Source: Candidatus Poribacteria bacterium (GTDB taxonomy: Bacteria > Poribacteria > WGA-4E > JAJDTR01). From it: DNA of 64,000 bases. The position numbers and the translations under genes were made by a program. The notes beneath the pieces were generated by a model. It was given only the letters and a program-made list of their open reading frames with translations, did not search any database and was not told the origin of the DNA. The stretch's first letter is position 1. Every line of letters starts with the position of its first letter. This document shows, in pieces, positions 8,800 through 63,700 of this stretch. The stretch spans positions 1 to 64,000 of the forward strand of contig JAPPIK010000020.1 of the NCBI GenBank assembly GCA_028820655.1, written 5' to 3'.

Positions 8800-9370
8800 A
8801 TCCGTGAATTCCGCCTAATCCGCGATTCAGACAATCCCTCCTCCTATCCCCCGACCCGCCTCCTCGTCTTCCTCTCTCTCCACTAATCACTCTCCACTGC
8901 TTTTCCCCCCTTCCACGCCTTCCAATCTTCCTCCCCTACCCTCACAAATCGCCCAACACCCCGCTTTTAATCCGCGAAATCCGCCTAATCCGCCTAATCC
9001 GCGATTCAGACAACCCTCCCCCTTCCCCTCACACCTCCGCCCCTAATCCTGCCAATCCCCAAATCTCATAAATCACAGTTCAGACAATCCCCGCTCCCTT
9101 ACCTCGCCTGCCATCCTCCCTTTCATCCCGTTTTCGCACCCTCACGAATCGCCCAACAACCCGCCTCTAATCCGCGAAATCCGCCTAATCCAGCAAGTGA
9201 GTGAATAGCGAGCGCGGTAGAGATCCCCTAATCCGCGATTCAGACAATCCTTCCTCCCATCCCCCGACCCGTCCCCTCGTCTTCCTCTCTCTCCACTCCC
9301 CACTCTCCACTGCCTTTCCCCCTCCTTCCCACTGGCCACTGACCACTAACCACTGACCACTGCCTCTCAA
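8800..9370. repeat. Further copies of the AATCCGC/C-T-rich repeat
   Basis: Repeats the text of 1-376. Confidence 0.85.
9192..9228 (-). repeat. 37-bp short insertion-like element (SIE) inside the AATCCGC repeat, flanked by TAATCC on both sides
   Basis: TAATCC-AGCAAGTGAGTGAATAGCGAGCGCGGTAGAGATCCCC-TAATCC; uninterrupted CCTAATCCGCGATTCAG occurs at ~8 and ~180. Confidence 0.75.
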
Positions 9371-15005: not shown

Positions 15006-15305
15006 GTGGGAGCGATCTCCAGGTCGCGATTTGACAGTTGTAGGGTGCAATCAAGCGAGTGGATAGCGAGTGCGATAGAGATCCCCCGCACACCAGCCTT
15101 TTGTAGGAGCGATCTCCAGGTCGCGATTGGACGTTGTAGGGTGTGCACCGCGCACCAGCCTTTTAAACCGTTGGGTCAACCGGCCCCTGTAGGAGCGATC
15201 TCCAGGTGGCGACTTCCCACTCCGGCGTCCATCACCCGACCCCGTGGGAGCGATCTCCCGATCGCGATTTCCCGCTCCAGCGGAGCGGCATGTCAATAGA
15301 AACTC
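15006..15305. repeat. Cluster of REP-like, GTGCGCACC and SIE repeats
   Basis: SIE at ~15049-15086 splits a TAGGGTGC...GCACACCAGCC unit. Confidence 0.8.
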
Positions 15306-22531: not shown

Positions 22532-22778
22532 GGTACGATCTCCTGAAAAGTGTAGGAGCGATATCTAGGTGTATCTACGGGAACGAATGGTGTTGGGTTT
22601 CGCTGCGGCCAACCCGATTTTGCACAATAGGGCGAGGGGACCTGGGATTTCTATCGCGGTCGTTATGGGAATTCTATCGCACTCACTATTCGTTCGTTTG
22701 ATTCCCTTGATCCCCTACGGGCACAACTGTTCACTCGGCTGAAGGGTCTGCGCGGGATCTCCGTGGGAGGCGAGCGTT

Positions 22779-25187
22779 TCAATTATTGTTTTGGACCTGG
22801 TTTACCACTAACACCAGGTCGAAGATATTGACAACCCCGTCTCCGTTCACGTCGGCGGTCGAATCGTCCGTGCCAAATCCTTGAGCCACCAACGTCAAGT
22901 CCAAGATATTCACCTCGCCGTCGTTGTTGAGGTCTGCCGGGTTTCGAGGATTGATTCTTATGTAAATCTCGCCGTCTAAGTTCGATAACTCGTGCTCGGT
23001 GCCTTGGATTCCGGAGGAGGCACCCCGCACCTTCTCCGGAAGGCGCAATATCCGCGCCTCTCCGCTGCGGTTGTACACCGCCCAGCCGTTCGTGAACTCT
23101 CGTATGAAAAGCCCCGGTTGGTCGTCGTAAGGCCGCGCCTTGTCTCCGATCGGACCGCCCAGGTTCGCATCCCAAAACTCGTACCAAAGCTTGACGGAAC
23201 GCCCCAGCACGCCAGTACCGTACTTGAAGTAGCCGTCGGAATGCGTAAGGTTAAGTGCCGTCGTGGCGCGCATCAGTCGGGAATTCTTTTCACTCAACAA
23301 ATACTCGCCGGGGATCGACCATACTTCCAAGCAGTTAATCTGCGGCGCCTTCAGATTCCGGTCTGCCCAGATGAGATGATTCTCAACCTCGATTAGCGCC
23401 CGTGTAATGATTCTGTCGTCGTGTGCGTCGTCCCACCTGTCAACTTTCAGTTCCAAGAAAATGCCGTTGACATAGTCCCCGATACCCGGGACGTTCCGCC
23501 AGCCGGCGCCGACCAAAATCAGGAACTCGTCACCGGTTTCGGCGCGGATGTGCCGCAGATAGTGCTCTCTTGCGGTTGCGAGCGCTTCATCGGCACGATC
23601 GCCTCGGGTACCTTGGACCTTGTCTCGCTCATCATTAAACATGATGCCATCGTACACGCCGCAGCGATAGACGGCGAGCGCACGTTGGAATTGTACATTC
23701 TCAACCGGCGGCCGCAAAAAATTCCCCGTGGTTGACACACCGGACGGCACCGAAATCAGGTACAGGAAATCTGGGTTTATGGATTGAGTTTTTTTCCTCT
23801 CGTATAAGGCGCCATCGATGTCCCCGCCAACCGTAACGGTCGTAGGACCGAACGCAAAATGCAATCTGAAGCCACGGGGCCCGTATCCGAGATCGTGGCG
23901 CGCCAATTTTGCGTTCGGAGAGTAGCGAATAACATCAGGAATCGGCAGGATTATCGAGGGGTAGTCTCGGTTGTTAATTCGATCGGCAATCGGGAGCCGC
24001 GGCACTGCGCAAGATTCGGTGTAGAAAAATCTCCGCAGCGAGAGTCCGTCAAGCGGACTGTGGTCCAGGATAGGATTATAACGTATGTATAACTCCTTCA
24101 AGTTTGACAGATTTGCCAGCGGACTCACATCTTCGATGCGGTTGCGCTCCAATGCCAATTTGGTAAGTTGCGCCAGATTGGCGAGCGGTCTTACATCCAC
24201 GATGCGGTTCGTACTCAATTCCAGTTCGGTAAGTTGTGCCAGGCTTGCGAGCGGTCTCACATCATCAATTTGGTTATTGTTCAGTTCCAAATAGGTAAGG
24301 TTTGCGAGATTCGCAAGCGCACTTATATCTCGCAGCCGGCAGCCGTTCAACTCCAGCGCGGTAAGCTGGGCCAGGTTGGCAAGGGGACCGATGTCCGTGA
24401 GTCGGTTGCCGCTCAAGTCTAATTTAGTGAGATTCTGCAGATTTGACAGCGCTCCGATTTCCTCGATCCAATTACTATCCGCCGCCAGCACCGTTAGGTT
24501 GCCGAGATTAGCCAGCGGACGAATATCAACAGTCCCGCAGCCGTTCAAATACAACTCGGTCAGGCGGGTCAAATTGGCTAGTGCGGAGAGATCCTCGATG
24601 AAGTTGTTGGATAGCCTCAATTCGGTGAGTTCGGTCATACCTTCGAGCGGACTAATGTCGCTAAACGAATTGAAACTGAGATTCAATACTTCGAGTCGCA
24701 CCATACCGCGGAGCGGCGCGATGTCTTCAATCCTGTTTAAGCGTAAGTTCAATTTTGTGAGACCAGTCAAGTTTGCAAGTCCGCTGATGTCTTCCAGGCG
24801 GCAGTCCCAAAGACTTAGCTCGCTGAGGTTCGCCAGATTTGCCAACGGGTTCAAGCTCTCAATGTTTAAGCATTCGCTCAAATCCAGTTCTCGAAGTCGG
24901 ATGAGGTCTTTTAAGGGGCTAATGTCAACAATCCAGTTGCGGTTTAACCGCAGGGAGGTTAGGTTCACGGCGTGTTCCAATCCGGAAAGGTTGATGATCT
25001 GCATGTGTACGGCATGCAACCGTGTCAATCGCCTCATGTCGGCTTCGGTGACAGGATCATCGAATCCCAACTTCAGGGTGTGTTGGATGGCGCGCCGGAG
25101 GTACAGGTCGGGGATTTCAACGAATTGGGCGTGAGCGGCGGCACAGAAAGCGAGCAGCAGGATGATGGCACAGATGTGTCGCAGCAT
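22779..25187 (-). CDS. Secreted leucine-rich-repeat protein with central TIM-barrel-like domain and dockerin-like C-terminus (copy 1)
   Basis: Signal peptide; many LANLTxLTxLxLNxN repeats; DLNNDGEVNILDLTLVAQ and DVNGDGVVNIFDLVLVVN. Confidence 0.85.
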   Translation of the reverse strand: MLRHICAIILLLAFCAAAHAQFVEIPDLYLRRAIQHTLKLGFDDPVTEADMRRLTRLHAVHMQIINLSGLEHAVNLTSLRLNRNWIVDISPLKDLIRLRELDLSECLNIESLNPLANLANLSELSLWDCRLEDISGLANLTGLTKLNLRLNRIEDIAPLRGMVRLEVLNLSFNSFSDISPLEGMTELTELRLSNNFIEDLSALANLTRLTELYLNGCGTVDIRPLANLGNLTVLAADSNWIEEIGALSNLQNLTKLDLSGNRLTDIGPLANLAQLTALELNGCRLRDISALANLANLTYLELNNNQIDDVRPLASLAQLTELELSTNRIVDVRPLANLAQLTKLALERNRIEDVSPLANLSNLKELYIRYNPILDHSPLDGLSLRRFFYTESCAVPRLPIADRINNRDYPSIILPIPDVIRYSPNAKLARHDLGYGPRGFRLHFAFGPTTVTVGGDIDGALYERKKTQSINPDFLYLISVPSGVSTTGNFLRPPVENVQFQRALAVYRCGVYDGIMFNDERDKVQGTRGDRADEALATAREHYLRHIRAETGDEFLILVGAGWRNVPGIGDYVNGIFLELKVDRWDDAHDDRIITRALIEVENHLIWADRNLKAPQINCLEVWSIPGEYLLSEKNSRLMRATTALNLTHSDGYFKYGTGVLGRSVKLWYEFWDANLGGPIGDKARPYDDQPGLFIREFTNGWAVYNRSGEARILRLPEKVRGASSGIQGTEHELSNLDGEIYIRINPRNPADLNNDGEVNILDLTLVAQGFGTDDSTADVNGDGVVNIFDLVLVVNQVQNNN

Positions 25188-25305
25188 TGGAGTTCTCCTC
25201 TATTCCGTGTTGATACCGCACTGGCGGGGATGGTGGAGCGGTGTCACGACCCGCCCGGACGATTATACAGGATTGGGACGAAGAATAACAGGAGGATCTG
25301 ATTCA
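25188..25305 (-). promoter_or_regulatory. Conserved upstream region of LRR copy 1
   Basis: Similar sequence precedes all three LRR genes (28590-28710, 31780-31890). Confidence 0.5.
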
Positions 25306-25580
25306 GAGCAGCCGTGTATGCCGTTGTTCTATAATGGCGATGCATCAATAGCGTCGATTGCCAGCGGAATCGTGGGGGAGGAAACCTCGCTCATAAGCGA
25401 TAGTCGCGACCTGGAAAAGATTCCTATCGTCCTCGTTATTCACTCGGTTGATCTCCTACAGGAGTGATTGGGTGATATTTGAGTGCAATCTAAGGATTGG
25501 GCGCGGGGCCCCCGAGATTTCTATGGGAGGTCTATCGTGCTCGCTATTCACTCGCTTGAATGCACCCTACAACTATTGAC

Positions 25581-25660
25581 ATTGCGCTCCGCTGGAGCGC
25601 GTAGACGGGTGTCGCTTGTTTCTATTGACATACCACTCCTAACGGAGTGGGGAGTCGCGA
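25581..25660 (+). repeat. Inverted-repeat pair element GCGCTCCGCTGGAGCGC...TTTCTATTGACATACCACTCCTAACGGAGTGG
   Basis: Same architecture at 29211-29293 and 50655-50740. Confidence 0.75.
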
Positions 25661-26156
25661 TTTGGAGAAGATCTCTATCGGATTTCTACCGCGCTCGCTA
25701 TCCACTCGCTTGCTGGATTTCTATCGCGGTCCTTATTCAGTCGCTTAATCAGTCATTATCCATTTCCTTGATCTCCTACAGAGGGAATCGCGATTTGGAA
25801 ATCGCTCCCACAGTTGGAGATCGCTTCTACGGATAAAAAGGCTGGTGCGCGGAAGATCCCTATGGGAATTCTGTCGCACTCACTATTCGTTCGTTTGATT
25901 CCCTTGATCCCCTACGAGATCGTCGCGATTCGGAGATTGATCCCACAGGAGTAAGTTTGCCGGGCACGAAGGGAGTTCGCTATCCATTCGCTTGAGTGCA
26001 CCCTATGGGTACGAATGGTGTTGAGTTTCGCTGTGCTCTAGCCAACCTACCAACTTCCAGAGGACATGGTGGGCAGGGGACTCTCTATCGCGGTCGCTAT
26101 CCACTCCCTTGATTCCACCCTACAGGTACTACGGGTATACGTGGGAGGCGAGCGTT

Positions 26157-28589
26157 TCAATTATTGTTCTGGAGCTGGTTTACCACTAACACCAGGTCGA
26201 AGATATTGACAACCCCGTCTCCGTTCACGTCGGCGGTCGAATCGTCCGTGCCAAATCCTTGAGCCACCAACGTCAAGTCCAAGATATTCACCTCGCCGTC
26301 GTTGTTGAGGTCTGCCGGGTTTCGAGGATTGATTCTTATGTAAATCTCGCCGTCTAAGTTCGATAACTCGTGCTCGGTGCCTTGGATTCCGGAGGAGGCA
26401 CCCCGCACCTTCTCCGGAAGGCGCAATATCCGCGCCTCTCCGCTGCGGTTGTACACCGCCCAGCCGTTCGTGAACTCTCGTATGAAAAGCCCTGGTTGGT
26501 CGTCGTAACGCCGCGCCTTTTCTCCGATCGGACGGCCCAGGTTAGCATCCCAAAAATCGTACCAATAATTGATGGAGGGCCCATTCCCGCCAACGCCGAA
26601 CTTGAAGTAGCCGTCGGAATGCGTAAGGTTAAGTGTCGTCGTGGCACGCATCCATTGGTGATTCTTTTCACGCCACGTATTCTTTTTACGCCACGAATTC
26701 TCATCGGGACCGGGCGCCGGCCATACTTCCAAGCAGTTAATCTGAGGCGTCTTCAGATGCCGGTCTGCCCAGAGGAGTAGATTCTCAATCTCGATTAGAG
26801 CCCGCGTGATTCTTCTGTCGTCGTGTGCGTCGTCCCATTTGTCAATTTTCAGTTCCAAGTAAATGCCGTTGACATAGTCCCCGATACGCGGGACGTTCCG
26901 CCAGCCGCCGCCGACCACAATCAGGAACTCGTCACCGGTTTCGGCGCGGATGTGCCGCAGGTAGTGCCCTCTTGCGGCTGCGAGCGCTTCATCGCTTCGA
27001 TTGCCTCGGGGACCTTGGATCTTGTCTCCCACACCATTAAACATGATGCCATCGTACACGCCGCAGCGATAGACAGCGAGTACACTCTGGAACTGTCTAT
27101 TCTTAACCGGCGGCAACAAGAAATTCGTCGAGGTTGACACACCGGCTGGCACCGAAAGCAGGTAAACGAATTCAGGGTTTACTGATAGAGCTCTATTCCT
27201 CTCGTATACGGCACCGCTAATGTTTCCGCCAACCTTAACGATCGTAGGACCGAACGCAAAATCCAAATGGAAGCCGCGGCCACCGTATCCGAGATCGTGG
27301 CGCGCCAATTTTGCGTTCGGAGAGAAGCTAACAATATGTGGAATCGGCAGGATTATCGAGGGGTAGTCTCGGTTGTTAATTCGATCGGCAATCGGGAGCC
27401 GCGGCACTGCGCAAGATTCGGTGTAGAAAAATCTCCGCAGCGAGAGTCCGTCAAGCGGACTGTGGTCCAGGATAGGATTATAACGTATGTATAACTCCTT
27501 CAAGTTTGACAGATTTGCCAGCGGACTCACATCTTCGATGCGGTTGCGCTCCAATGCCAATTTGGTAAGTTGCGCCAGATTGGCGAGCGGTCTTACATCC
27601 ACGATGCGGTTCGTACTCAATTCCAGTTCGGTAAGTTGTGCCAGGCTTGCGAGCGGGCTCACATCTTCAATTTGGTTATTGTTCAGTACCAAATGGGTAA
27701 GGTTTGCGATATTCGCAAGCGCACTTATATCTCGCAGCCGGCAGCCGTTCAACACCAGCGCGGTAAGCTGGGCAAGGTTGGCAAGGGGACCGAGGTCCGT
27801 GATTGCGTTGCCGCTCAAGTCTAATTCAGTGAGATTTTGCAGATTTGACAGCGCACCGATTTCCTCGATCCGATTACTATCCGCCGCCAGCACCGTCAGG
27901 TTGCCGAGATTAGCCAGCGGACGAATATCAACAATCCCACACCGGTGCAAATTCAACTTGGTGAGGCGAGTCAGATTGGCAAGCGCAGCGAGATCCTCGA
28001 TGACGTTTTGGGATAGGTTCAAGTCGGTGAGTTCGGTCATACCGGCGAGCGGGTCGGCGTCCAAAATATCATTCGAATAGAGATTCAATACTTCGAGCCG
28101 CACCATACCGCGGAGCGGCGCGATGTCTTCAATCCTGTTTAAGCTCAGATCCAATTTTGTGAGACCGGTCACGTTTGCCAGTCCGCTGATGTCTTCCAGG
28201 CGGCAGTCCCAAAGACTTAGCTCGCTGAGGTTCACTAGATTTGCCAACGGGTTCAAGCTTTCAATGTTTAAGCATTCGCTCAAATCCAGTTCTCGTAGTC
28301 GGATGAGATCCTTTAAGGGGCTAATGTCGACAATCCAGTTGCGGCTTAACCGCAGGGAGGTTAGGTTCTCGGCGTGTTCCAATCCGGAAAGGTCGCGGAT
28401 CTGCATGTGTACGGCATGCAACTGCGTCAATCGCCTCATGTCGGCTTCGGTGACAGGATCATCGAATCCCAGCTTCAGGGTGTGTTGGATGGCGCGCCGG
28501 AGGTACAGGTCGGGGATTTCAACGAATTGGGCGTGAGCGGCGGCACAGAAAGCGAGCAGCAGAATGAGCGCACAGATGTGTCGCAGCAT
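26157..28589 (-). CDS. Secreted LRR protein with dockerin-like C-terminus (copy 2)
   Basis: Very similar to copy 1; last ~110 residues nearly identical. Confidence 0.85.
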   Translation of the reverse strand: MLRHICALILLLAFCAAAHAQFVEIPDLYLRRAIQHTLKLGFDDPVTEADMRRLTQLHAVHMQIRDLSGLEHAENLTSLRLSRNWIVDISPLKDLIRLRELDLSECLNIESLNPLANLVNLSELSLWDCRLEDISGLANVTGLTKLDLSLNRIEDIAPLRGMVRLEVLNLYSNDILDADPLAGMTELTDLNLSQNVIEDLAALANLTRLTKLNLHRCGIVDIRPLANLGNLTVLAADSNRIEEIGALSNLQNLTELDLSGNAITDLGPLANLAQLTALVLNGCRLRDISALANIANLTHLVLNNNQIEDVSPLASLAQLTELELSTNRIVDVRPLANLAQLTKLALERNRIEDVSPLANLSNLKELYIRYNPILDHSPLDGLSLRRFFYTESCAVPRLPIADRINNRDYPSIILPIPHIVSFSPNAKLARHDLGYGGRGFHLDFAFGPTIVKVGGNISGAVYERNRALSVNPEFVYLLSVPAGVSTSTNFLLPPVKNRQFQSVLAVYRCGVYDGIMFNGVGDKIQGPRGNRSDEALAAARGHYLRHIRAETGDEFLIVVGGGWRNVPRIGDYVNGIYLELKIDKWDDAHDDRRITRALIEIENLLLWADRHLKTPQINCLEVWPAPGPDENSWRKKNTWREKNHQWMRATTTLNLTHSDGYFKFGVGGNGPSINYWYDFWDANLGRPIGEKARRYDDQPGLFIREFTNGWAVYNRSGEARILRLPEKVRGASSGIQGTEHELSNLDGEIYIRINPRNPADLNNDGEVNILDLTLVAQGFGTDDSTADVNGDGVVNIFDLVLVVNQLQNNN

Positions 28590-28710
28590 TGGAGTTGTCC
28601 TTTATACCGTGTTGATACCGCGCTTGCGGGACCGGTGGAGCGGTGTCACGACCAGCCCGGACGATTATACAGGATTGGGACGAAAAATAACAGGAGGATC
28701 TGATTCACAG
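28590..28710 (-). promoter_or_regulatory. Conserved upstream region of LRR copy 2
   Basis: Nearly identical to 31780-31890. Confidence 0.5.
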
Positions 28711-29210
28711 GAGCCGTTTCGGGTAGATTGATACACGGATGGCGTTCTTGCTGTGCGCGATTTCTTTTCAGTCCGCCTACGGTTTGGGTGAGGAAACCCG
28801 GGATTTCTATCGCGCTCGTTATTCACTCGCTTGATCCCTTACGGCGAAGGCATGAGCGGGCGGTCGGTTGATGGTCGCGATTCGGAGATCGCTCCTACGG
28901 GGGGTGGTTGGGTGATATTTGAGTGTAACCTACGGATTGGGCGCGGAAACCACGACCCTACGCCGGAGGTATGAGCGGTCGGTCGGTTGATGGTCGCGAT
29001 TCGGAGATCGCTCCTACAGGAGTGGTTTGACGGTCACGAAGGGAGCTCGTCAGTCATTCCATTGATCGCACACCGCGCAAAGTACAAAAGGCTGGTGCGC
29101 GGGGGAACTCTGTCGCACTCGCTATCCACTCGCTTGATTGCACCGTACAGTTGCTAAATCGCGACCGGAAGTTTCTTGGATATTCGGTCGCTTGATTGCA
29201 GTCTTTACCT

Positions 29211-29293
29211 CACATTGCACTCCGCTGGAGTGCGTCAATGAATATCGTCCGTTTCTATTGACATTCCACTCCTCTGGAGTGGGGAGTCGCGAC
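29211..29293 (+). repeat. Inverted-repeat pair element CACTCCGCTGGAGTG...TTTCTATTGACATTCCACTCCTCTGGAGTGG
   Basis: Two short hairpins separated by a conserved spacer. Confidence 0.75.
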
Positions 29294-29352
29294 CGGTGCG
29301 GATTTGCTATCGCCCCCGTTGACCACAAAGTTGATTTTTTGCCTGCCCGTGG

Positions 29353-31779
29353 TCAATCCCCTTCGTCTTCGATTCGGAGTTCGCCTGCCACAGCCACCAA
29401 ATCAAGAATATTAACCTGTCCGTCGCCATTCAGGTCCAGGCCGGGTATGTCGGTGCCGAAGCCTTGAGCCACCTGAATCAGGTCCAAAACATTCACTTCG
29501 CCGTCGTTATTGACGTCCGCTGGGGTTTGCCGTTTGATTCTGAGAAAGATTTCGCCGTCAAAGTTCGGCAGTTGGTGCTCGGCGGCTTGGACGCCGGCGG
29601 ATTTGCTCCTCACGTCCTCCGGCAGCCGTATCAACTGCGTCTCGCCGCTGCGGTTGTACACCGCCCACCCGTTCGTGAACTCGCGTATGAAGAGTCCGGG
29701 ACGATTATCGTAGCGCTGAGCCATCTCGCCGACGGGGCGTCCGAGGTCAACATTCCAGAACTCGTACCAATCCGCGCCGGAAAGCGCACGCGCACCGGTG
29801 CCAAACTTCATGAAGCCGTCGGAGTGCGTAAGGCTCAGTGCCGTCATGGCGCGCATCCAGCGTACATTCGTCTCGCTCCACGAATATTCGCCGGGAAACG
29901 ACCAACCCTCCAGGCAGATGATTTGAGGCGCCTTGAGATTCCGCTGCGCCCAAAGGAGTCGATTCTCCATCGTGATTAGAGTTCTTTTCGTGCCGTTGCT
30001 ATCCTGTTTCCCGTCCTCGCCGCCGACTTTTAGCTCCAAGTATAGCCCGTTCACATAGTCCTCGATTCGCGGGACATTCTGCCAACTGCCGTTAGCCAAA
30101 ATCAGGAACTCGTCTCCAACTTCAGATCGGATGCGGCGCAGGATGTTCTCCCTCGTGCCGATGATCGCTTGTTCGCTCCAGTAACCCTCATAATTTTGGA
30201 CGTAATCTCTCCCATAATCAAAGACGATGCCGTCGTACAAGCCGCAGCGATAGATGGAGAGCGCTCGCTGGACAATGATATCCTGAACCTCCGGTTGAAC
30301 AAAATCAACCAAAAACCCATCAGCCGTTTCCTGGAACCACCCCCTCTCGTCAAGGATATAGTGCGGTGAGTCATAGCGTAATTCGCGGTATGATAATCCG
30401 ATCATTGGCACTGAAATAAGGTAAATCAAGTTGGGGTTTACGGAGCGTATCTTGTTTCGCTGCATTACCGCACCCTCAATGTATCCGCCAACCGTAGCGG
30501 TAGTCGGACCGTGTGCGTAATGCAAGCCGAAGGCTTCGCCGCTGAATTGGAGATCGTGGAGCGCCAGATGTTCCTGCGGTCCCGAATCATAAAGATAAGG
30601 CCACGGCAAAATTATGGATGGGAAGTCTCTATTGTTAATCCGATCACTGAGCGGAGGGCGCGGCTCTGCGCAAGGCGGGGTGTAGAGAAATCTCCCTATT
30701 GAAAGCGCTTCAAGCGGGCTATAGTCGAGGATAGGATTAAAGCGTATGGCTAACTCCTCCAAGTTTGTCAGATTCGCGAGCGGGCTCACGTCCTCAATGC
30801 GGTTGTTCTCCAATACCAGTTCGGTAAGTTGTGTCAGGCTGGCAAGCGGGCTGACATCTTCAACACTGGCTCGTAGGTCCAATTTCGTAAGTTTAGTGAG
30901 ATTCGCGAGTGCGCTGATATCCCGAATCGCACCGCCGATTAACTCCAACTCAAGGAGTTTCGTCAAGTTGCCTAGCGGACGGATATCTCTGATCCGGTTG
31001 GCGCCAAGGACCAATTTTGTGAGATTGGTTAGATTTTCCAAGGGGCTGATATCCGCGACCCTGTTATAGGACAGGTCCAGTATCCTGAGATTCGCCAAAT
31101 CCTGCAGCGGACGTATATCAACAATCGAATTCCCGTTGAGATACAACTCGGTAAGGCTGGTGAGACCAGCGAGAGGGTTGACATTATCAATGCCAAAATT
31201 GGCGAGATGCAGTTGGCGGAGCTGTGTGAGTTTGGCAAGAGGACGAATGTCCCCGGTATAGTTGTAGCTCAAATAGAGGGTGCGGAGTTGTGTGAGATCT
31301 GCGAGCGGGCCAATGTCCCGAATCCGGTTCTGAACCAGGTTTAATTCGGTGAGACGAGTCAGGTTTGCGAGTGCACTGATGTCCTCGATGTCGCAGTCCC
31401 AAAGACCAAGTACGCTGAGGTCCACTAGATTCGACAACGGGTGCAAGTTCTTTAAGCTTGAGCATTGGCTCAAATCCAGTTCTCGAAGTCGGCTGAGGTT
31501 TTTTAAGGGGCTAATGTCAACAATCCCGTTGCGGTTTAACCGCAGGGAGGTTAGGTTTACGGCGTGTTCCAATCCGGAAAGGTCGATGATTTGCATGTGT
31601 TCGGCATGCAACCGCGTCAATCGCCGCATATCGGCTTCGGTGACAGGATCATCGAAACCCAGTTTCAGGGTGTGTTGGATGGCGCGCCGGAGGTACAGGT
31701 CGGGGATTTCAACGAATTGGGCGTGAGCGGCGGCACAGAAAGCGAGCAGCAGAATGAGCGCACAGATGTGTCGCAGCAT
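29353..31779 (-). CDS. Secreted LRR protein with dockerin-like C-terminus (copy 3, more diverged)
   Basis: N-terminal ~70 aa nearly identical to copies 1 and 2; DVNNDGEVNVLDLIQVAQ and DLNGDGQVNILDLVAVAG. Confidence 0.85.
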   Translation of the reverse strand: MLRHICALILLLAFCAAAHAQFVEIPDLYLRRAIQHTLKLGFDDPVTEADMRRLTRLHAEHMQIIDLSGLEHAVNLTSLRLNRNGIVDISPLKNLSRLRELDLSQCSSLKNLHPLSNLVDLSVLGLWDCDIEDISALANLTRLTELNLVQNRIRDIGPLADLTQLRTLYLSYNYTGDIRPLAKLTQLRQLHLANFGIDNVNPLAGLTSLTELYLNGNSIVDIRPLQDLANLRILDLSYNRVADISPLENLTNLTKLVLGANRIRDIRPLGNLTKLLELELIGGAIRDISALANLTKLTKLDLRASVEDVSPLASLTQLTELVLENNRIEDVSPLANLTNLEELAIRFNPILDYSPLEALSIGRFLYTPPCAEPRPPLSDRINNRDFPSIILPWPYLYDSGPQEHLALHDLQFSGEAFGLHYAHGPTTATVGGYIEGAVMQRNKIRSVNPNLIYLISVPMIGLSYRELRYDSPHYILDERGWFQETADGFLVDFVQPEVQDIIVQRALSIYRCGLYDGIVFDYGRDYVQNYEGYWSEQAIIGTRENILRRIRSEVGDEFLILANGSWQNVPRIEDYVNGLYLELKVGGEDGKQDSNGTKRTLITMENRLLWAQRNLKAPQIICLEGWSFPGEYSWSETNVRWMRAMTALSLTHSDGFMKFGTGARALSGADWYEFWNVDLGRPVGEMAQRYDNRPGLFIREFTNGWAVYNRSGETQLIRLPEDVRSKSAGVQAAEHQLPNFDGEIFLRIKRQTPADVNNDGEVNVLDLIQVAQGFGTDIPGLDLNGDGQVNILDLVAVAGELRIEDEGD

Positions 31780-32518
31780 TGGAGTTGTCCTTTATACCGT
31801 GTTGATACCGCGCTTGCGGGACCGGTGGAGCGGTGTCACGACCAGCCCGGACGATTATACAGGATTGGGACGAAAAATAACAGGGCGATCTGATTCCGAG
31901 CGGCTGTTTCGGGTAGATAGAAACACGGATGGGGTTCTTGCTGTGCGTGATTTCTTTTCAGTCCGGCTACGGTTTGGGAGAGGAAACCGCGTCCCGACGG
32001 CGGAGGCATGAGCGGTCCGTCGTTTGATGGTCGCGATTCGGAGAAGATTTCTATCGTCCTCGTTATTCACTCGGTTGATCTCCTACGGGGGTGGTTGGGT
32101 GATATTTGAGTGCAACCTACAGATCGGGCGCGGCGACCGCGTCCCTACGGCGAAGCGTGACCGGCCGGTCGGTTGAAGGTCGCGATTCGGAGATCGCTCC
32201 TACAGGGGTGGTTGGGTGATATTTGCGTGCAACCTACGGATTGGGCACGGAGCCCCGGGATCTCTATCGCGCTCGCTATTCACTCGCTTGATCCCTTACG
32301 GCTGAGGTATGAGCGGCCGGTCGGTTGATGGTCGCGATTCGGAGATCGCGCCTACAGAAGTTGGTTTGCCGGTCACCAAGGGAGCTCGTCAGTCATTCCA
32401 TTGATCGCACCGCGCAAAGTCCAAAAGGCTGGTGCGCATGGGAATTCTATCGCACTCCTTATCCAGTCGTTTGATTGCACCCTACAAAGAACTCCGCTCA
32501 GCAATTAATCAACCCGTG

Positions 32519-34420
32519 TTAGCGGGGGTAGTCCCATAACAGTATCGTGCCGTCGCTGCTCCCGCTCACCAGCGTGTCGCCGTCCGAGTTGAAGCCGAGA
32601 CTGCGCACCCACGCAGTGTGCCCCTTCAGCGCCCGTCGATGCACGCCGGTCGCGGCGTCCCAGAAATCGATGCCGCCGTTGGTCCCTCCCGTTGCCACTT
32701 CGCCGCCATTCGGGGTGAAAACCACACTCATGGCACCCATTTCGGGTTGAAGGGTGTGGCGGTTCGCACCTGTCACCGTGTCCCAGAGCCGCACGGTTTT
32801 GTCCCCGCTAACACTCGCCAACGCGCCGCCGGTGGGACTGAATACAACGCTGATGATGTCAAGCTCGTGCCCTCTAAGTGTGTGCAGAGAGGTGCCCTCC
32901 GCCGTATCAAGTACACGAATCGTATAGTCGTCGCTGCCGCTCGCCAGCATTCTTCCGTCCGGGCTGAACGCGAGACTGGTGCGTACGGGTCGATATATGG
33001 TCATAGGGACAGGCGCGGGTTTCCATGTGTATGATTTCAGTTTAGCCCCGGTTTTAGCGTCCCACAGCGTGGCGGAACTGACGCCGTCGCCGCTCGCGAA
33101 CATGGAGCCGTCCGCACTGTACGCGAAGACAACGCCATCTCCGGCGTCTTTCACCAAGGTGCGCAGTTCGCGGCCCGTCAAAACATCCCAGAGTCTGATG
33201 CTGTGGTAGTCGTCTCCTCGCACCAGCGTTTGTCCATCCGGTCGAAAGACGAAATTGGGCGACAGCGACATATCGTCGTCCAGCGAACGCATGTATGCCC
33301 CCGTGGTAGTATCCCACACGCGAATGGGTTGTCTCGATCCTTCGCTTGCCAACGCGCCGCCGTCGGGGCTGATAGCCACGAAATCTACATGATCGAAATG
33401 ACCTCCCATGCCCCACAAGTATTCTCCCGTCGTTAAGTCCCACTCACGAATGGTAGAATCCGCGGTTGCCAGCCGCCCGCCGTCGGGGCTAAAAGCGACC
33501 GCTTCAAGTGAGCCGAAATCAGTCGTGTCAACGGTGTAGGTAAGTTCACCAAGTGTTCGCAGTCGTTTCCCCGTCGCTGCCTCCCAGATATGCACGGAAT
33601 CATAGATGTCCCCGCCCGCCAGCGTAGCGCCATCCGGACTAAAACCCACGCATGTAACTCCGGTCTCGGTACCCTCCAGTTGGCGCAGAAATTCGCCGCT
33701 CCCGACATCCCATAGGCGCGTACTTCCACTCCAACTCGTGCTTGCCAGTTTCGACCCATTCGTGCTAAATGCAACGCTCGAGACATTCTTCGTATGCCCC
33801 TTGAGGGTGCGTAGATGTTCTCCCGTTGACGCATTCCATAGCTCGATGTCGGTGTCGACAAAACTCCAAACCGCCAGCCTCGAGGTATCCGGGTTAAACA
33901 CGGCGCCTACACCCCTTTGCACCATATCCTCCTGCCTCTGCGCACGGAATGACTGCTCCTTCTCGCCGGACAACGAATCCCAAATTTGGACGTTAGTGTC
34001 GAAATCTATGCTTGCGAGTTTGGCACCGTCTCGGCTAAAAGCCACGTCGATGATTCTCGACGTGTGACCTTCGAACGTCCGCAAATGCGCGCCCGTTGAA
34101 GCGTTCCGGAGATGAATGTTGTTATCCCACCCTCCACTCGCCAATACACTGCTATCCGGACTAAAGGCTAGACACCAGACAACACCCTCGTGCGCGGCGA
34201 ACAGGGCAGGTTCGCTGCGATCCACGGTGTCGTGGATCCAGATACCGATGCCCGTCGCAACGGCGAGCCGAGAGCCGTCGGGCGAATACCGCATCTCGGT
34301 GATCTTCCCGCTTCCAAGGCGCAACCTAGCGCCGTCAGGCAGTCCCGATTGAGGGAATATTTCGGCGGCGCTTGGAAAGGAGAACGCAAAAAGTGACAGT
34401 AGGGTCAACACAGACTTCAT
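32519..34420 (-). CDS. Secreted WD40-repeat protein
   Basis: Start at MKSVLTLLSLFAFSFPSAAE; repeated AFSPDGxxLASGSxDxTIRxWD. Confidence 0.85.
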   Translation of the reverse strand: MKSVLTLLSLFAFSFPSAAEIFPQSGLPDGARLRLGSGKITEMRYSPDGSRLAVATGIGIWIHDTVDRSEPALFAAHEGVVWCLAFSPDSSVLASGGWDNNIHLRNASTGAHLRTFEGHTSRIIDVAFSRDGAKLASIDFDTNVQIWDSLSGEKEQSFRAQRQEDMVQRGVGAVFNPDTSRLAVWSFVDTDIELWNASTGEHLRTLKGHTKNVSSVAFSTNGSKLASTSWSGSTRLWDVGSGEFLRQLEGTETGVTCVGFSPDGATLAGGDIYDSVHIWEAATGKRLRTLGELTYTVDTTDFGSLEAVAFSPDGGRLATADSTIREWDLTTGEYLWGMGGHFDHVDFVAISPDGGALASEGSRQPIRVWDTTTGAYMRSLDDDMSLSPNFVFRPDGQTLVRGDDYHSIRLWDVLTGRELRTLVKDAGDGVVFAYSADGSMFASGDGVSSATLWDAKTGAKLKSYTWKPAPVPMTIYRPVRTSLAFSPDGRMLASGSDDYTIRVLDTAEGTSLHTLRGHELDIISVVFSPTGGALASVSGDKTVRLWDTVTGANRHTLQPEMGAMSVVFTPNGGEVATGGTNGGIDFWDAATGVHRRALKGHTAWVRSLGFNSDGDTLVSGSSDGTILLWDYPR

Positions 34421-34683
34421 AACAATTCCTCCCGAATTATAAGGATAACGGCAATTCGTCGATTCGCCGAGTCGTACGCTGGATTTACTTTCGTCCTCCC
34501 GAGTCAGTCGGATGATCACTCATTATCCATTCGCTTGATACCACCGTTTCCTGCCGGCTTATGGTCGCGACCGGGAGGTCGCTCCTACAGAAGAGGTTGG
34601 GTGGTATTTTAGTGTATCTACGGGAACAGATGGAGTTGGGTTTCGCGGCGCTCTACCCAACCTACGAATCGGGCGCGGGCCCC

Positions 34684-35135
34684 GGGATTTCTATGGGACT
34701 TCTATGGGAGTTCTATCGCGGTCATTATCCATTCGCTTGATACCACCGTTTCCTGCCGGCTGATGGTCGCGACCGGGAGGTCGCTCCTACAGAAGAGGTT
34801 GGGTGGTATTTTAGTGTATCTACGGGAACAGATGGAGTTGGGTTTCGCGGCGCTCTACCCAACCTACGAATCGGGCGCGGGTACCCGGGATTTCTATGGG
34901 ATTTCTATAGCGCTCGCTATTCATTCGCTTGATCCCCCACGTCTGAGGTATGAGCGGCCGGTCGGTTGATGGTCGCGATTCGGAGATCGCTCCTACGGGG
35001 GTGGTTGGCTGATATTTGAGTGTAACCTACCGGTTGGGCGCGGGTACCCGGGATTTCTATGGGATTTCTATGGGAGTTCTATCGCGGTCATTATCCATTC
35101 CCTTGATCACTCGCTATTCACTCGCTTGATCCCCT
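34684..35135. repeat. Dense SIE array with iterated GGGATTTCTAT heads, plus REP-like units
   Basis: GGGATTTCTATGGGACTTCTATGGGAGTTCTATCGCGGTCATTATCCATTCGCTTGAT and variants. Confidence 0.8.
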
Positions 35136-35147
35136 ACGAAGGAGGCG

Positions 35148-37052
35148 CTAAAGGGGGAAGTCCCATAACAGTATTGTGCCGTCGCCGCTCCCGCTCACCA
35201 GCGTGTTGCCATCAGGGGCGAAAACGAGGCTATTGACCGCCCAACCGTGCCCCTTCAGCGCCCGCTGATGCGTGCCGGTCGCGGCGTCCCAGAAATCGAT
35301 ACTGCCATTGATGCCCCCGGTGGCGATTTCACCCCCATTCGGGGTGAAGACCACACTCAGGGCACCCGTTCCCGGTTGTAGGGTGAGGAGATCCGCACCT
35401 GTCACCGTGTCCCAGAGCCGCACGGTATTATCGCCGCTAACACTCGCCAGCACACCTCCGTCCGGACTGAATACGACGCTAACGATGTCCAACTCATGCC
35501 CTTTCAGTGTATGCAGAGGGGTGCCCTCCGCCGTGTCAAATAGACGAATCGTATAGTCCTCGCTGCCGCTCGCCAGCAGTTTTCCGTCGGGACTGAATGC
35601 TAGACTGGTGCGAATCGGCCGGTAAATGACTTGTGAGAAATCGAAAAGTTCCCAGTTAAACGTGCGTAGTTTCGCGCCGGTTTGCGCATCCCAGAGCGTG
35701 GCGGAACTGACAGCATCGCCGCTCGCGAACATGGAGCCGTCCGCGGTGTACGCGAAGACTACGTCATTTCCTGCATCTTTCACTAAGGTGCGCAGTTCGC
35801 CGCCCCTGCGCAAATCCCAGAGTCTGATGCTATGGTAATCGTCTCCTCGCACCAGCGTTTGTCCATCCGGTCGAAAGACAAAGTTGGGCGACAGGGACAT
35901 ATCGTGCTCGAGCGAGCGCTTGTGTACCCCCGTGGCGGCGTCCCATACGCTTATGGGTTGTCTCGCGCCCTGGCTCGCCAAGGTGGCGCCGTCGGGGCTG
36001 ATCGCCGCGAAATTCACCGAGTCAAAATGACCTCCTATGCCCCACAAGCGTTTTCCGGTCATTGAGTCCCACACTCGGATGGTCGAATCCGCGGTAGCCA
36101 GCCGCCCGCCATCGGGGCTAAATGCGATCGCGGCGACGGATTTGAAAGTGAACGAGGCAAGGGTGTCGCTACGTCCTCCCAGCGTTCGCAGCAGTTCCCC
36201 CGTTCCGGCGTCCCATATTCGGGTGGATTCGTCGCTGTGCCCGGACGACAGCGTGGAGCCATTCGGACTAAAATCCACGCACTGGACGCCAGCCTCCGTA
36301 CCCTCCAGTCGGCGCAGATGACTTCCGGACACAACATCCCACAGACGAATACTGTCGCGCCAACTTCCACTTGCCAACATTGATCCATCGGGGCTAAAAG
36401 CAACGCAGGTGAGGTACTCTGTATGTCCTTGCAAGGATCGTAGATGTTTTCCCGTCGATATATCCCACAAGTCAATGTCATGCTTATTTCTATAATTCCA
36501 AGCTGCCAGCATTGAGCCATCCGGACTTAGAACCGCTTCTGCGGGCATGTACTCCATACCCTCCTGCGTACGTGCATCGAAAGAGAGCTGCTCCTCACCC
36601 GTCGCGGTGTCCCAAATACGGACGGAGTTCTCATAATCTACACTTGCGAGGGCGGAGCCGTCTCGGCTGAAAATCACGTCGATGACTCTTGACGTGTGAC
36701 CTTCCAACGCCCGCAAATGCGCGCCCGTTGAAGCGTTCCGGAGATGAACGGCGTTGTCCGTACTTCCACTCGCCAATAGGTTTCCATCCGGGCTGTAGGC
36801 TAGACATGATATGCCCCCTTCATGTGCGGACAACAAGGCAGGTTCCTTACGGTTCGCCGCGTCGTAGATCCAGATGCCGATGCCCGTTGCAACGGCGAGC
36901 CGAGCGCCGTCGGGCGAGTACTGCATTTCGGTAATATTACCGTTTCCAAGCCGCAGCCTAGCGCCGTCAGGCAGTCCCGATTGAGGGGATCCTTGGGCGG
37001 GGCCAAGTGAGGAGAACGCAGCCAGTGAGAATAGGGTCAGCATAAACTTCAT
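35148..37052 (-). CDS. Secreted WD40-repeat protein, paralog of 32519-34420
   Basis: PQSGLPDGARLRLGNGNITEMQYSPDGARLAVATGIGIWIYDA; parallel repeat order. Confidence 0.85.
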   Translation of the reverse strand: MKFMLTLFSLAAFSSLGPAQGSPQSGLPDGARLRLGNGNITEMQYSPDGARLAVATGIGIWIYDAANRKEPALLSAHEGGISCLAYSPDGNLLASGSTDNAVHLRNASTGAHLRALEGHTSRVIDVIFSRDGSALASVDYENSVRIWDTATGEEQLSFDARTQEGMEYMPAEAVLSPDGSMLAAWNYRNKHDIDLWDISTGKHLRSLQGHTEYLTCVAFSPDGSMLASGSWRDSIRLWDVVSGSHLRRLEGTEAGVQCVDFSPNGSTLSSGHSDESTRIWDAGTGELLRTLGGRSDTLASFTFKSVAAIAFSPDGGRLATADSTIRVWDSMTGKRLWGIGGHFDSVNFAAISPDGATLASQGARQPISVWDAATGVHKRSLEHDMSLSPNFVFRPDGQTLVRGDDYHSIRLWDLRRGGELRTLVKDAGNDVVFAYTADGSMFASGDAVSSATLWDAQTGAKLRTFNWELFDFSQVIYRPIRTSLAFSPDGKLLASGSEDYTIRLFDTAEGTPLHTLKGHELDIVSVVFSPDGGVLASVSGDNTVRLWDTVTGADLLTLQPGTGALSVVFTPNGGEIATGGINGSIDFWDAATGTHQRALKGHGWAVNSLVFAPDGNTLVSGSGDGTILLWDFPL

Positions 37053-41669: not shown

Positions 41670-42266
41670 GCCGGTATAGGCGCCAAGCTGGATGTAGAGG
41701 TCGTATCGAGCGGCATTAATTTATACATGCTGATGGCTGGGGATTCCTCGGCTACACGGAAAATTCTTGTTAGGTCGAAGCATATGGGAGCAAACCGGAA
41801 AAGCCGGGTTTCTTTATCAAACTCGGCTTTCTCTGTACAATTTTGGAAGATTGGACGATTGGAGGGTGGTGACCTAGGGAATAGGTGAGCGGGACCAAGA
41901 GGCGGACAGAAGATTGGCGGTGGCGGGGGAGATACAGTGACCAGTGGATCTCTACCGCACTCGCTAATCACTCGCTTGCTGGCTAGTGGAGAGGCGGACG
42001 TGCGGGTTGTCGGGCGTTTGCCGGAGGTACGGAGGAATGGTAGTCTATGAATCTCTAAGGGTGTTGTATTGCAGGGGATTGGGCGCGGGAATCCAGGATT
42101 TCTATGGCGGTCGCTATTCGCTCGCTTGATGGTCGCGATTCGGAGATCGCTCCTACTCCCTTGATCCCCTACGCGATGATCGCGATTCGGAAATCGCTCC
42201 CACAGATCGGTTGTGTGATACTGCGGTATGTTGACCGCAAGGGAGGCTTCTATCGCACCGTACCAT

Positions 42267-50654: not shown

Positions 50655-50740
50655 TCACATTGCGCTCCGCTGGAGCGCGATAATTGGACGTAGCATGATT
50701 CTACTGACATTTCACTCCTCTGGAGTGGGGAGTCGCGACC
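50655..50740 (+). repeat. Inverted-repeat pair element
   Basis: GCGCTCCGCTGGAGCGC...TTCTACTGACATTTCACTCCTCTGGAGTGGGGAGTCGCGACC. Confidence 0.75.
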
Positions 50741-50887
50741 TGGAGCAAATCTCTATCGTCCTCGTTATTCACTCAGTTGATGTCCTACGGGTGCTAGTTG
50801 ATCGTGTCCTGAAGTAAAGAAGTCCAAAAGGCTGGTGCGCATTGCACACCCTACATGCTTCAAATACGCAACGAAAGGAGTTAAACC

Positions 50888-51304
50888 ATGATTGAGCGTA
50901 AAGCGGCGATGCTTCGGATAGTCACATGTGCAGTTGGGGGAGCGGTTTTTCTTCTGCTGTTGGTACAACTCTTCCCGTTCGGCTTGATTCATCCTGATGA
51001 CGGTGCGTACGCGGAAAGTGCGCCTGTCCTTTTCATTTTTGGCGTGGGCGCATTCCTCGGGTTGCTGCCGGGAATTGCGTGGGCGATCGACCAGAAGTCG
51101 GCGCGGCGGCGGTTTCTGCTATGGTCGATCTCGGGCATCGTGGTTGGCGTCATCTTGGCGGCGGTTACGGGCCGCTTTCTACTGATGTTTGCGTTCTGGC
51201 TATCGGGGGTGTATGTCGGCGTCGTCTCGGCGTTGAAGCGGCTGGGGATGTATAAGGTCCAGGAAGACAATCAAGCGGCTGAGGGGAATGAATTGAGTGA
51301 ATAA
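50888..51304 (+). CDS. Four-TM hypothetical membrane protein
   Basis: MIERKAAMLRIVTCAVGGAVFLLLLVQ...GLLPGIAWAIDQKSARRRFLLWSISG. Confidence 0.65.
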   Translation: MIERKAAMLRIVTCAVGGAVFLLLLVQLFPFGLIHPDDGAYAESAPVLFIFGVGAFLGLLPGIAWAIDQKSARRRFLLWSISGIVVGVILAAVTGRFLLMFAFWLSGVYVGVVSALKRLGMYKVQEDNQAAEGNELSE

Positions 51305-51415
51305 AAGGCTGGTGGGCAGGGGATCTCTATCGCGCTCGCTATCCACTCGCTTGATTCCACCCTACAGGTTGTATCGCACCCTGGTGCAAAAACGAGGCAA
51401 AAATGCTGGTGCGCA

Positions 51416-51451
51416 TAGGATCTCTATCGCGCTCACTATTCATTCGCTTGA
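51416..51451 (+). repeat. 36-bp SIE copy, filled site
   Basis: GCGCA[TAGGATCTCTATCGCGCTCACTATTCATTCGCTTGA]TTGCACCCTACAT; uninterrupted GCGCATTGCACACCCTACAT upstream of the paralogous gene (~50837-50856). Confidence 0.8.
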
Positions 51452-51496
51452 TTGCACCCTACATCTTTCAAACGCGCAAACGGAAGGGGTTGAACG

Positions 51497-57773: not shown

Positions 57774-58693
57774 CGGCGATTGGCGCGCCAGATATTGAGC
57801 GAGAAACAGCATCTGGTGAATAAAAGATGTGTTAGAAAGGCCGGGTTTCTACTAGGGAACTCGGCTTTTTTATGCAATTTAACTCAAGGTACAGCGCTGG
57901 ACAGTTGGGTTTCACTCAGTTTTTCGGTACATGAGGCAGTACGAGAATACCGCGTACCTTTGACAATTACATTTTCTACAGAAGGACCGTTCAACCCAAC
58001 CTACGGACCTTCCACACTGAGTTAGCGCCTCTTGCCCCGTATCCGATGAGTTGGAATTCGTGACCGGGAGAGGATCTCTATCGCAGTCATTATCCATTCC
58101 TTTGATCTCCTACAGATGCGCAGAAACGCTATGGTGGGTAGGGGAGTCCTATCGTGCGGGATTTACTATCGCCCTCACTATTCGTTCGGTTGATTCTATT
58201 CAGTCGCTTGATGGATTTACTATCGCGGTCGTTATTCACTCACTTGATTGCACGCTACGTACTCCGAATCAGAATGTAACGCACTTGACGTAGTAGGCGG
58301 TTCCCACCTCGTGGTTATTCCTGTCGTCTCATCAATCGCTCAAGACTACGCCAATCGAAAAAGCTCATCATTCGTCTACTTCCCTCCGACCCATTTACCC
58401 TCGGTACTGCATTCTTTGAACCTACCCCCAAATTTATCACGAATCTTCGATTCCAAAGCAGTTAGTTTGAACTTACACGCGTTCAGTGCGGCGACGTGTG
58501 GAGAATCGAATGGGTCTATTATTCTTTTGAGAATTTTTAGATTGACAACTTTACATGTGTATAGTATATTTTACGGAGAATTGGCACCCTTAAGATCGAT
58601 ATGCGGTGCATTGGGCGTCTGAAATTGGGAGGCAAGTCGGCACTCGAGGTGTCTTCGGTATTCTTTAGAATATACGTGACGAGGTGAAAAATC

Positions 58694-63214: not shown

Positions 63215-63700
63215 ATATAACTTGCCTTCCGCATTATCGAGCACCTAAAAGTTTGATTTCTCATGTGGCCGTGTCGCGCACCATTATTGACAGAAATGAG
63301 CCCGTTTGAAAAGTACATTTGTAGGGTGCGCACTGCGCACCAGCATTTAAAAGCCCCAGAGGGGATCAAGCGAATGGATAGTGAGTGCGATAGAGATCTT
63401 GAAGGTGTGTAGAAATGCCAGAACCCCGTGCACCTAAGCCCCAGAGGGGCAACAGGTACATAGCAGACAACAATAAAAGCACGAAAAACCTTCCTACGAA
63501 TGAACAAAATGGCTCTGCTACCGATTATTCAAACAGGCTCTAAAGCTGATGATGGAAGGGAAAAACGGTCAATCAATCGGACTCGGGGTAGTATCTCGGT
63601 GATTTTTGGTCGTTCGAGGAGATACGCCCAAGATCTAGTATGTGAGAATTTGAGATTACACAAGTCTATTATGCGGATGATAAGTATAACTTTAGTCGGT
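63215..63700. repeat. Second, shuffled copy of segments at ~20220-20330, ~5040-5240 and ~20570-20660 (IS-end-like)
   Basis: CTTCCGCATTATCGAGCAC, GATAGAGATCTTGAAGGTGTGTAGAAATGCCA, GGTGATTTTTGGTCGTTCGAGGAGATA. Confidence 0.7.

Follow-up and report, generated by a model that had tools for sequence, protein, structure and literature searches.

The window analysed here, a stretch of 64,000 nucleotides from Candidatus Poribacteria, a sponge-symbiont-type bacterium, contains a pair of paralogous genes (46% identity, E=3e-40), neither of which gave a match in a Pfam search. The leaders of the two genes have the flanks CTGGTGCGCA and CCCTACAT in common. One leader (50832-50856) reads CTGGTGCGCA-TTGCACA-CCCTACAT and the other (51406-51464) reads CTGGTGCGCA-TAGGATC...TTGATTGCA-CCCTACAT, i.e., 7 bases lie between the common flanks in the former and 41 in the latter, which is a net difference of +34, with two target bases lost on filling. 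The similarity of the leaders extends downstream of the hairpin, and their right flanks differ (TTGCACACCC versus TTGCACCC). A sequence-only reading had taken the two leaders for an empty and a filled site upstream of paralogous genes. Both leaders exist and the genes are paralogous, but the exact difference of 36 bp which had been claimed was not found, neither in this pair nor genome-wide, where the usual net gain is 33-35, with a mode of 34.

The common flanks are the arms of a dispersed hairpin, C1 (GGTGCGC...GCGCACC-CTAC), and not arbitrary leader DNA; thus, the inserted piece, which is called element A in the following, is a repeat located within the hairpin loop of a second repeat. In the congener G001 both paralogous genes are absent at the syntenic place, and therefore this locus does not allow a cross-species comparison. 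Copies of A and related features of the window are compiled in Table 1.

Table 1. Coordinates of element A copies, host hairpins and empty sites in the window.
Feature	Position	Strand	Basis and remarks
Third A copy, in B hairpin (GTCGCGACCTGGAG ... TCCTAC)	50749..50781	+	profile match
C1 hairpin without A, paralogue leader (empty site)	50832..50856	+	sequence
Second A copy, in C2 hairpin (GGTGGGC ... CCACC-CTAC), same intergenic region as the copy at 51416	51321..51355	+	profile match
Host C1 hairpin arms CTGGTGCGCA ... GCACCCTAC, filled with A	51406..51464	+	sequence
Element A copy at filled site, apex of C1 hairpin	51416..51452	+	nhmmer match 51418-51452; net +34 vs 50832-50856
A copy in C1 hairpin	15050..15084	-	profile match
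A copy at filled site; empty homologue 31979-32003	28801..28835	+	flanks 158 bp 92.4%, 41 bp 92.7%; net +34
A copy in B hairpin; empty B homologue 34978-34999	32046..32079	+	net +32
A copy at filled site; empty homologue 28943-28965	32258..32292	+	flanks 106 bp 90.6%, 156 bp 91.7%; net +34
Nested A-in-A: outer 1-10 = 35062-35071, inner 35073-35107, outer 13-35 = 35108-35130	35062..35130	+	profile match
Nested A-in-A, split within stem: inner 58159-58194, outer right part 58196-58212	58159..58212	+	profile match
A copy in H repeat (ACACCTTC ... CCCCTCTGGGGC); empty homologue in congener	63365..63398	-	net +34

Copy number and distribution of element A

Element A (GGATCTCTATCGCRCTCGCTATYCACTCGCTTGAT) is 35-36 nt long and has the consensus ends R-GGATC...TTGAT-Y. 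About 50 matches were obtained in the window by a profile search, and the genome from which the window is taken (G000; 5.88 Mb, 61 contigs) contained 678 matches with at most 3 mismatches, compared with 0 for a reversed control pattern, so that the recurrence of the block, originally put at dozens of copies, was confirmed. When 85 genomes of the phylum were searched, matches were spread over four genera: G001 had 489 copies, G004, a member of another family, 107, and G014 13, while the remaining genomes had 0 to 2 matches each. Only 12.6% of A copies were located in open frames of at least 200 aa, which hold 75% of random positions. Statistics on A are based on 1.65 Mb of the own genome, 390 kb of G001 and 398 kb of G004; the genomes are metagenome assemblies, where a collapse of repeats could drop copies of A but not create steps of +34.

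A variant of A has CTACCG ... TTGCTGG instead of CTATCG ... TTGAT (e.g., at 9194-9226, 25680-25712 and 41946-41978 of the window); both distant changes occur together, yet they form no standard pair. The region 22600-37000 of the window is a tandem array of paralogues (leucine-rich-repeat-like and WD40-like genes), with spacers in which A, B, C, D and H repeats are intermingled.

Hairpin structure of element A

With positions numbered on GGATCTCTATCGCRCTCGCTATYCACTCGCTTGAT, the three highest values of mutual information (0.89, 0.56 and 0.53; the next value was 0.22) belonged to the nested pairs 18-26, 14-30 and 15-29. Among distinct copies of the own genome the covarying pairs, with 18 pair combinations, were of the Watson-Crick type in 77-86%, compared with 37-41% after shuffling. 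The covariation was repeated in G001 and was weaker in G004. The three pairs surround an invariant TC/TC; on the complementary strand this corresponds to a tandem 5'-GA-3' mismatch (GA/GA). In standard DNA parameters the predicted hairpin is weak (z -0.5 to -0.7); the tandem G-A core may stabilise it. No Rfam match at the gathering threshold was obtained in the window, and a known Rfam RNA was rejected for A on these grounds.

Filled and empty sites

A total of 325 A clusters in 2.04 Mb (1.65 Mb of the own genome and 390 kb of G001) were surveyed for homologous sites free of A, with at least 40 bp matching on each side of the cluster. Such a homologue was found for 49 clusters. The length differences to the best homologues of these 49 sites were 30-35 in 16 cases (34 in seven and 33 in four of them) and 67-70 in six, and the mode was 34. 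Of random 35-bp intervals, 0/347 showed length differences of 30-36, and of intervals near A copies 1/313, whereas single A clusters which were put through the control procedure, filled homologues included, gave 10/56. The alignments had clean gaps, with 2-8 target bases replaced, usually 2-4; this accounts for a net gain of 33-35 rather than 36. No clear duplication of the target site was detected in the filled/empty alignments or in nested copies. Within the window the clearest pairs were those of the copies starting at 32258 and 28801 with their empty homologues (Table 1).

Comparison of syntenic intervals showed that 8 of 12 A clusters of the own genome and 22 of 25 of G001 were without A in the other species. 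In one case a 62-bp unit of B plus A, present in G001, had no counterpart in the own genome, where the flanks on its two sides (425 and 120 bp; 87% identity) were retained. Since most copies of A are not common to both congeners, the element has been mobile. The expectation of presence and absence in a sister genome was thus correct, but not that of exact steps of 36-37 bp, the mode being 34.

It could be argued that the filled/empty pattern is for the most part artefactual, being produced when longer composite repeats of a repeat-rich genome recombine, are deleted or are duplicated. Several pairs are situated in the tandem array of paralogues (22-37 kb) or in dispersed repeats of the H, D or E type, not all events are independent, and some gaps in the congener are far larger than A. 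Some pairs are indeed parts of longer duplicated repeats and may share one event; the number of independent insertions is therefore below the 49 sites, and about 10 unrelated target types is the safer figure. However, a net gain of +33 to +35 was found at unrelated targets (C1, E, B, H, D, A and a coding region), and intervals in the neighbourhood of A hardly ever gave it, which makes an artefact very improbable.

Nested copies and targets

Both halves of another A flanked 54 of 301 full copies, compared with 10 of 3000 random flanks. The outer A was split at 10|13 in 26 cases and at 16|19 in 7; at each split 2 bases were replaced by about 36, i.e., net +34. Duplication of separate left and right modules was considered and dropped in favour of nested insertion, since both halves sum to one A. 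Neighbouring copies within 300 bp were direct in 74 cases and inverted in one (n=75).

Besides A itself, five other hairpin families contained copies of A, which were located in loops or junctions of C1, C2, E, B, H and D hairpins. In G004 the element was present in the same E-hairpin loop; thus, the target preference is not confined to one family of the order. For most target types, the replaced bases have CG or TG at their end and C after it. A strict rule of CG/TG before C was rejected, since D targets and the pairs at 28-32 kb do not fit. The base following TTGAT was C or T in 94% of copies, and 98 of 301 copies had CTAC (GTAG on the other strand) no more than about 14 nt downstream, which was mostly contributed by the host hairpin. 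Complementarity of the flanks was likewise discarded as a general rule: stems of at least 5 were found in 15% of cases versus 6% for shuffled flanks, an excess which is modest because many copies are nested or outside hairpins.

Genes with names derived from sequence reading also contain A in an open frame that is kept, i.e., an IS1634-like transposase (GLSLGQ[RDLLPPSLSARL]LIVGW; position 256206 of contig C4) and, at C32:75632, a methyltransferase-like gene, which in the congener is without 63 nt, a difference that may be due to either gain or loss. Beside the insertion in the methyltransferase-like gene (contig C32, about 75560-75670) a repeat of the CCAGTGACCAGTGGCTAGTG type is also in frame, and short repeats other than A may enter genes too.

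The notion of a discrete insertable unit was upheld by the quantised length differences as compared with the controls, by the recurrent nesting points, by presence and absence in the congener and by the in-frame insertions in genes. With about 36 nt, element A is very probably a micro-element which is mobile but non-autonomous, and which is gained and lost as one unit.

Search for a mobiliser

Three RAYT-type genes of the L032/L033/L034 kind are present in the own genome, two of which are confident RAYT members (above the NF047646 cut-off), and all three have A within 100 bp, against a background of 7.5% of genes. This proximity, together with the CTAC close downstream of about one third of the copies, would be in agreement with classical REP/RAYT relationships, A being a REP of the GTAG type that is moved by the RAYT genes of its own genome. 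However, the GTAG is part of the host hairpins (B, C and E), and about two thirds of A copies are without it; inverted doublets of A are nearly absent (1/75 neighbouring pairs). Moreover, G001 with its 489 copies has no close relative of these RAYTs (best 31% identity), and many genomes with such RAYTs carry no A. A classical REP/RAYT system is thus an improbable explanation for the spread of A.

In L033 (1420-1900) the RAYT-like gene has two internal stops; one of its sides is bordered by three A-in-B units in tandem, the opposite side by four B hairpins. Three further Poribacteria records (L098-L100) have RAYT genes that are flanked by other GTAG hairpins (e.g., CTGTAGGAGCGAGCTGTGCTCGCGA and CGTAGGCGGGGCATCTTGCCCCGCC), and no A is present there.

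TnpA of the IS200 type was found in 54 of 73 genomes and hence does not track A; its genes are bordered by H or D hairpins of their own and not by A. It was therefore rejected as a partner of A. In L031, L183 and L185 (around 1300-2050 each), TnpA is flanked in inverted orientation by H, AAGCCCC-AGC-GGGGCGACAGGT ... ACCTGTCGCCCCGCTGGGGC, an arrangement suggestive of H being the REP partner of the IS200-type TnpA. Related TnpA of other genomes (L181, L182, L187, L188) have D-type hairpins (CCGCTCCTCCGGAGCGG) on their flanks, and a D-like repeat (50656-50727 of the window) occurs over much of the order.

Among the RAYT and TnpA candidates which were compared across genomes, no gene tracking A was found. 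The simplest view would pair B, C and E with RAYTs and H and D with TnpA, with A being present in all of these hairpins.

The lack of a tracking gene would also be expected if A were spread without a dedicated enzyme, for which template switching or DNA synthesis primed by hairpins, from one existing palindromic repeat to another during replication, could be responsible, and the strong preference for hairpins and for A itself, the small replaced target segments and the nested forms would be compatible with such a process. On the other hand, the copies are full-length with both ends uniform, nested splits recur at two exact points, copies are present in coding DNA, and the high copy number in few lineages only suggests a specific factor. 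Enzyme-free spread therefore appears rather unlikely.

The alignments show that an insertion usually replaces 2-4 bases (net +33 to +35) at recurrent sites, most often CG or TG and then C, and that these sites are largely found in A itself and where other hairpin repeats have a loop or junction. The central hairpin of A has paired bases that covary around the conserved TC/TC, and turnover between the congeners is high. It can be envisaged that a trans-acting enzyme would recognise this hairpin, most likely on single-stranded DNA (e.g., at a replication fork), and that a copy of A would be joined into another exposed hairpin.

A HUH Y1 nuclease of the IS200/RAYT kind, acting on the single-stranded A hairpin, is the most plausible mobiliser and is proposed here tentatively. 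The proximity of A to all three RAYT-type genes of the own genome speaks for a Y1 enzyme. Points against it are the distribution of RAYT and TnpA genes, the weakness of the predicted hairpin and the chemistry of IS200/IS605, which is not known to replace target bases. Possible, albeit somewhat doubtful, is that A represents a new micro-transposable element, the entire recognition signal of which would be one single-stranded hairpin of 36 nt with tandem G-A at its core, and which would prey on hairpins and on itself, replacing about 2 target bases, by means of an enzyme or a replication process that would not be driven by RAYTs and would not yet have been described.

Relation to known small repeats

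Cyanobacterial SDRs reportedly measure 21-27 bp, and their mobility is said to have been deduced by Elhai et al. in 2008 from sites with and without the repeat, including sites inside other repeats. With SDRs of this size and REPs of 20-40 bp (PMC3733652), the claim that A is far shorter than known mobile repeats could not be maintained. By description A resembles the SDRs, which are likewise very short and dispersed, with filled/empty evidence for mobility; it differs from them by its length of about 36 nt, self-nesting at fixed points, replaced bases, covarying pairs around a GA/GA loop and its host, Poribacteria. REPs are known inside longer palindromes and reading frames (PMC3733652); SDRs have been named beside REPINs, which are inverted REP doublets (PMC3116915).

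With GTAG REPs A shares a size of 20-40 bp, hundreds of copies, a mostly intergenic location and a hairpin with complementary changes in the stem. However, A has no GTAG tag of its own, which is expected in more than 90% of members (CTAC was near A in 98/301), its stem is broken by the conserved TC/TC mismatch loop, and across genomes it does not appear to follow the distribution of RAYT genes, although all three of those in the own genome have A within 100 bp; it is the hairpins B, C and E of the own genome that resemble the GTAG REP/RAYT kind. REPINs are also non-autonomous mobile hairpin DNA, but neighbouring copies of A are direct in 74/75 and are not inverted doublets at fixed spacing.

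Rickettsia palindromic elements are in-frame insertions in genes (PMC10969869, PMC3733652) of about 150 bp (PMC10969869). They share with A the palindromic character and the in-frame location in genes that stay open, whereas A has 36 nt and is mainly intergenic. MITEs have 70-300 bp and inverted ends of 15-30 bp (PMC3733652). Bacterial MITEs are, like A, non-autonomous and inserted as units, although the inverted ends of A, with its 36 nt, have at most about 5-6 bp (GGATC/GATCC), and its insertion replaces bases, with no visible target duplication. Thus, A is an SDR/REP-like micro-element, and the description of SDRs fits best. No description of such repeats in Poribacteria was found in titles and abstracts of the open-access literature.

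How pieces of DNA of 20-40 bases move in bacteria is an open question for SDRs and is debated for REPs. In the case of A, the sequence reveals the unit, the points that are hit repeatedly in the targets, the bases replaced there and the positions that pair, and a congener with roughly 75-90% identity is available for comparison; the mechanism is therefore testable, with a hairpin of defined base pairs and a fixed expected product of +34. From the nested repeats it can also be seen how composite repeats between genes grow, and how proteins acquire short in-frame insertions.
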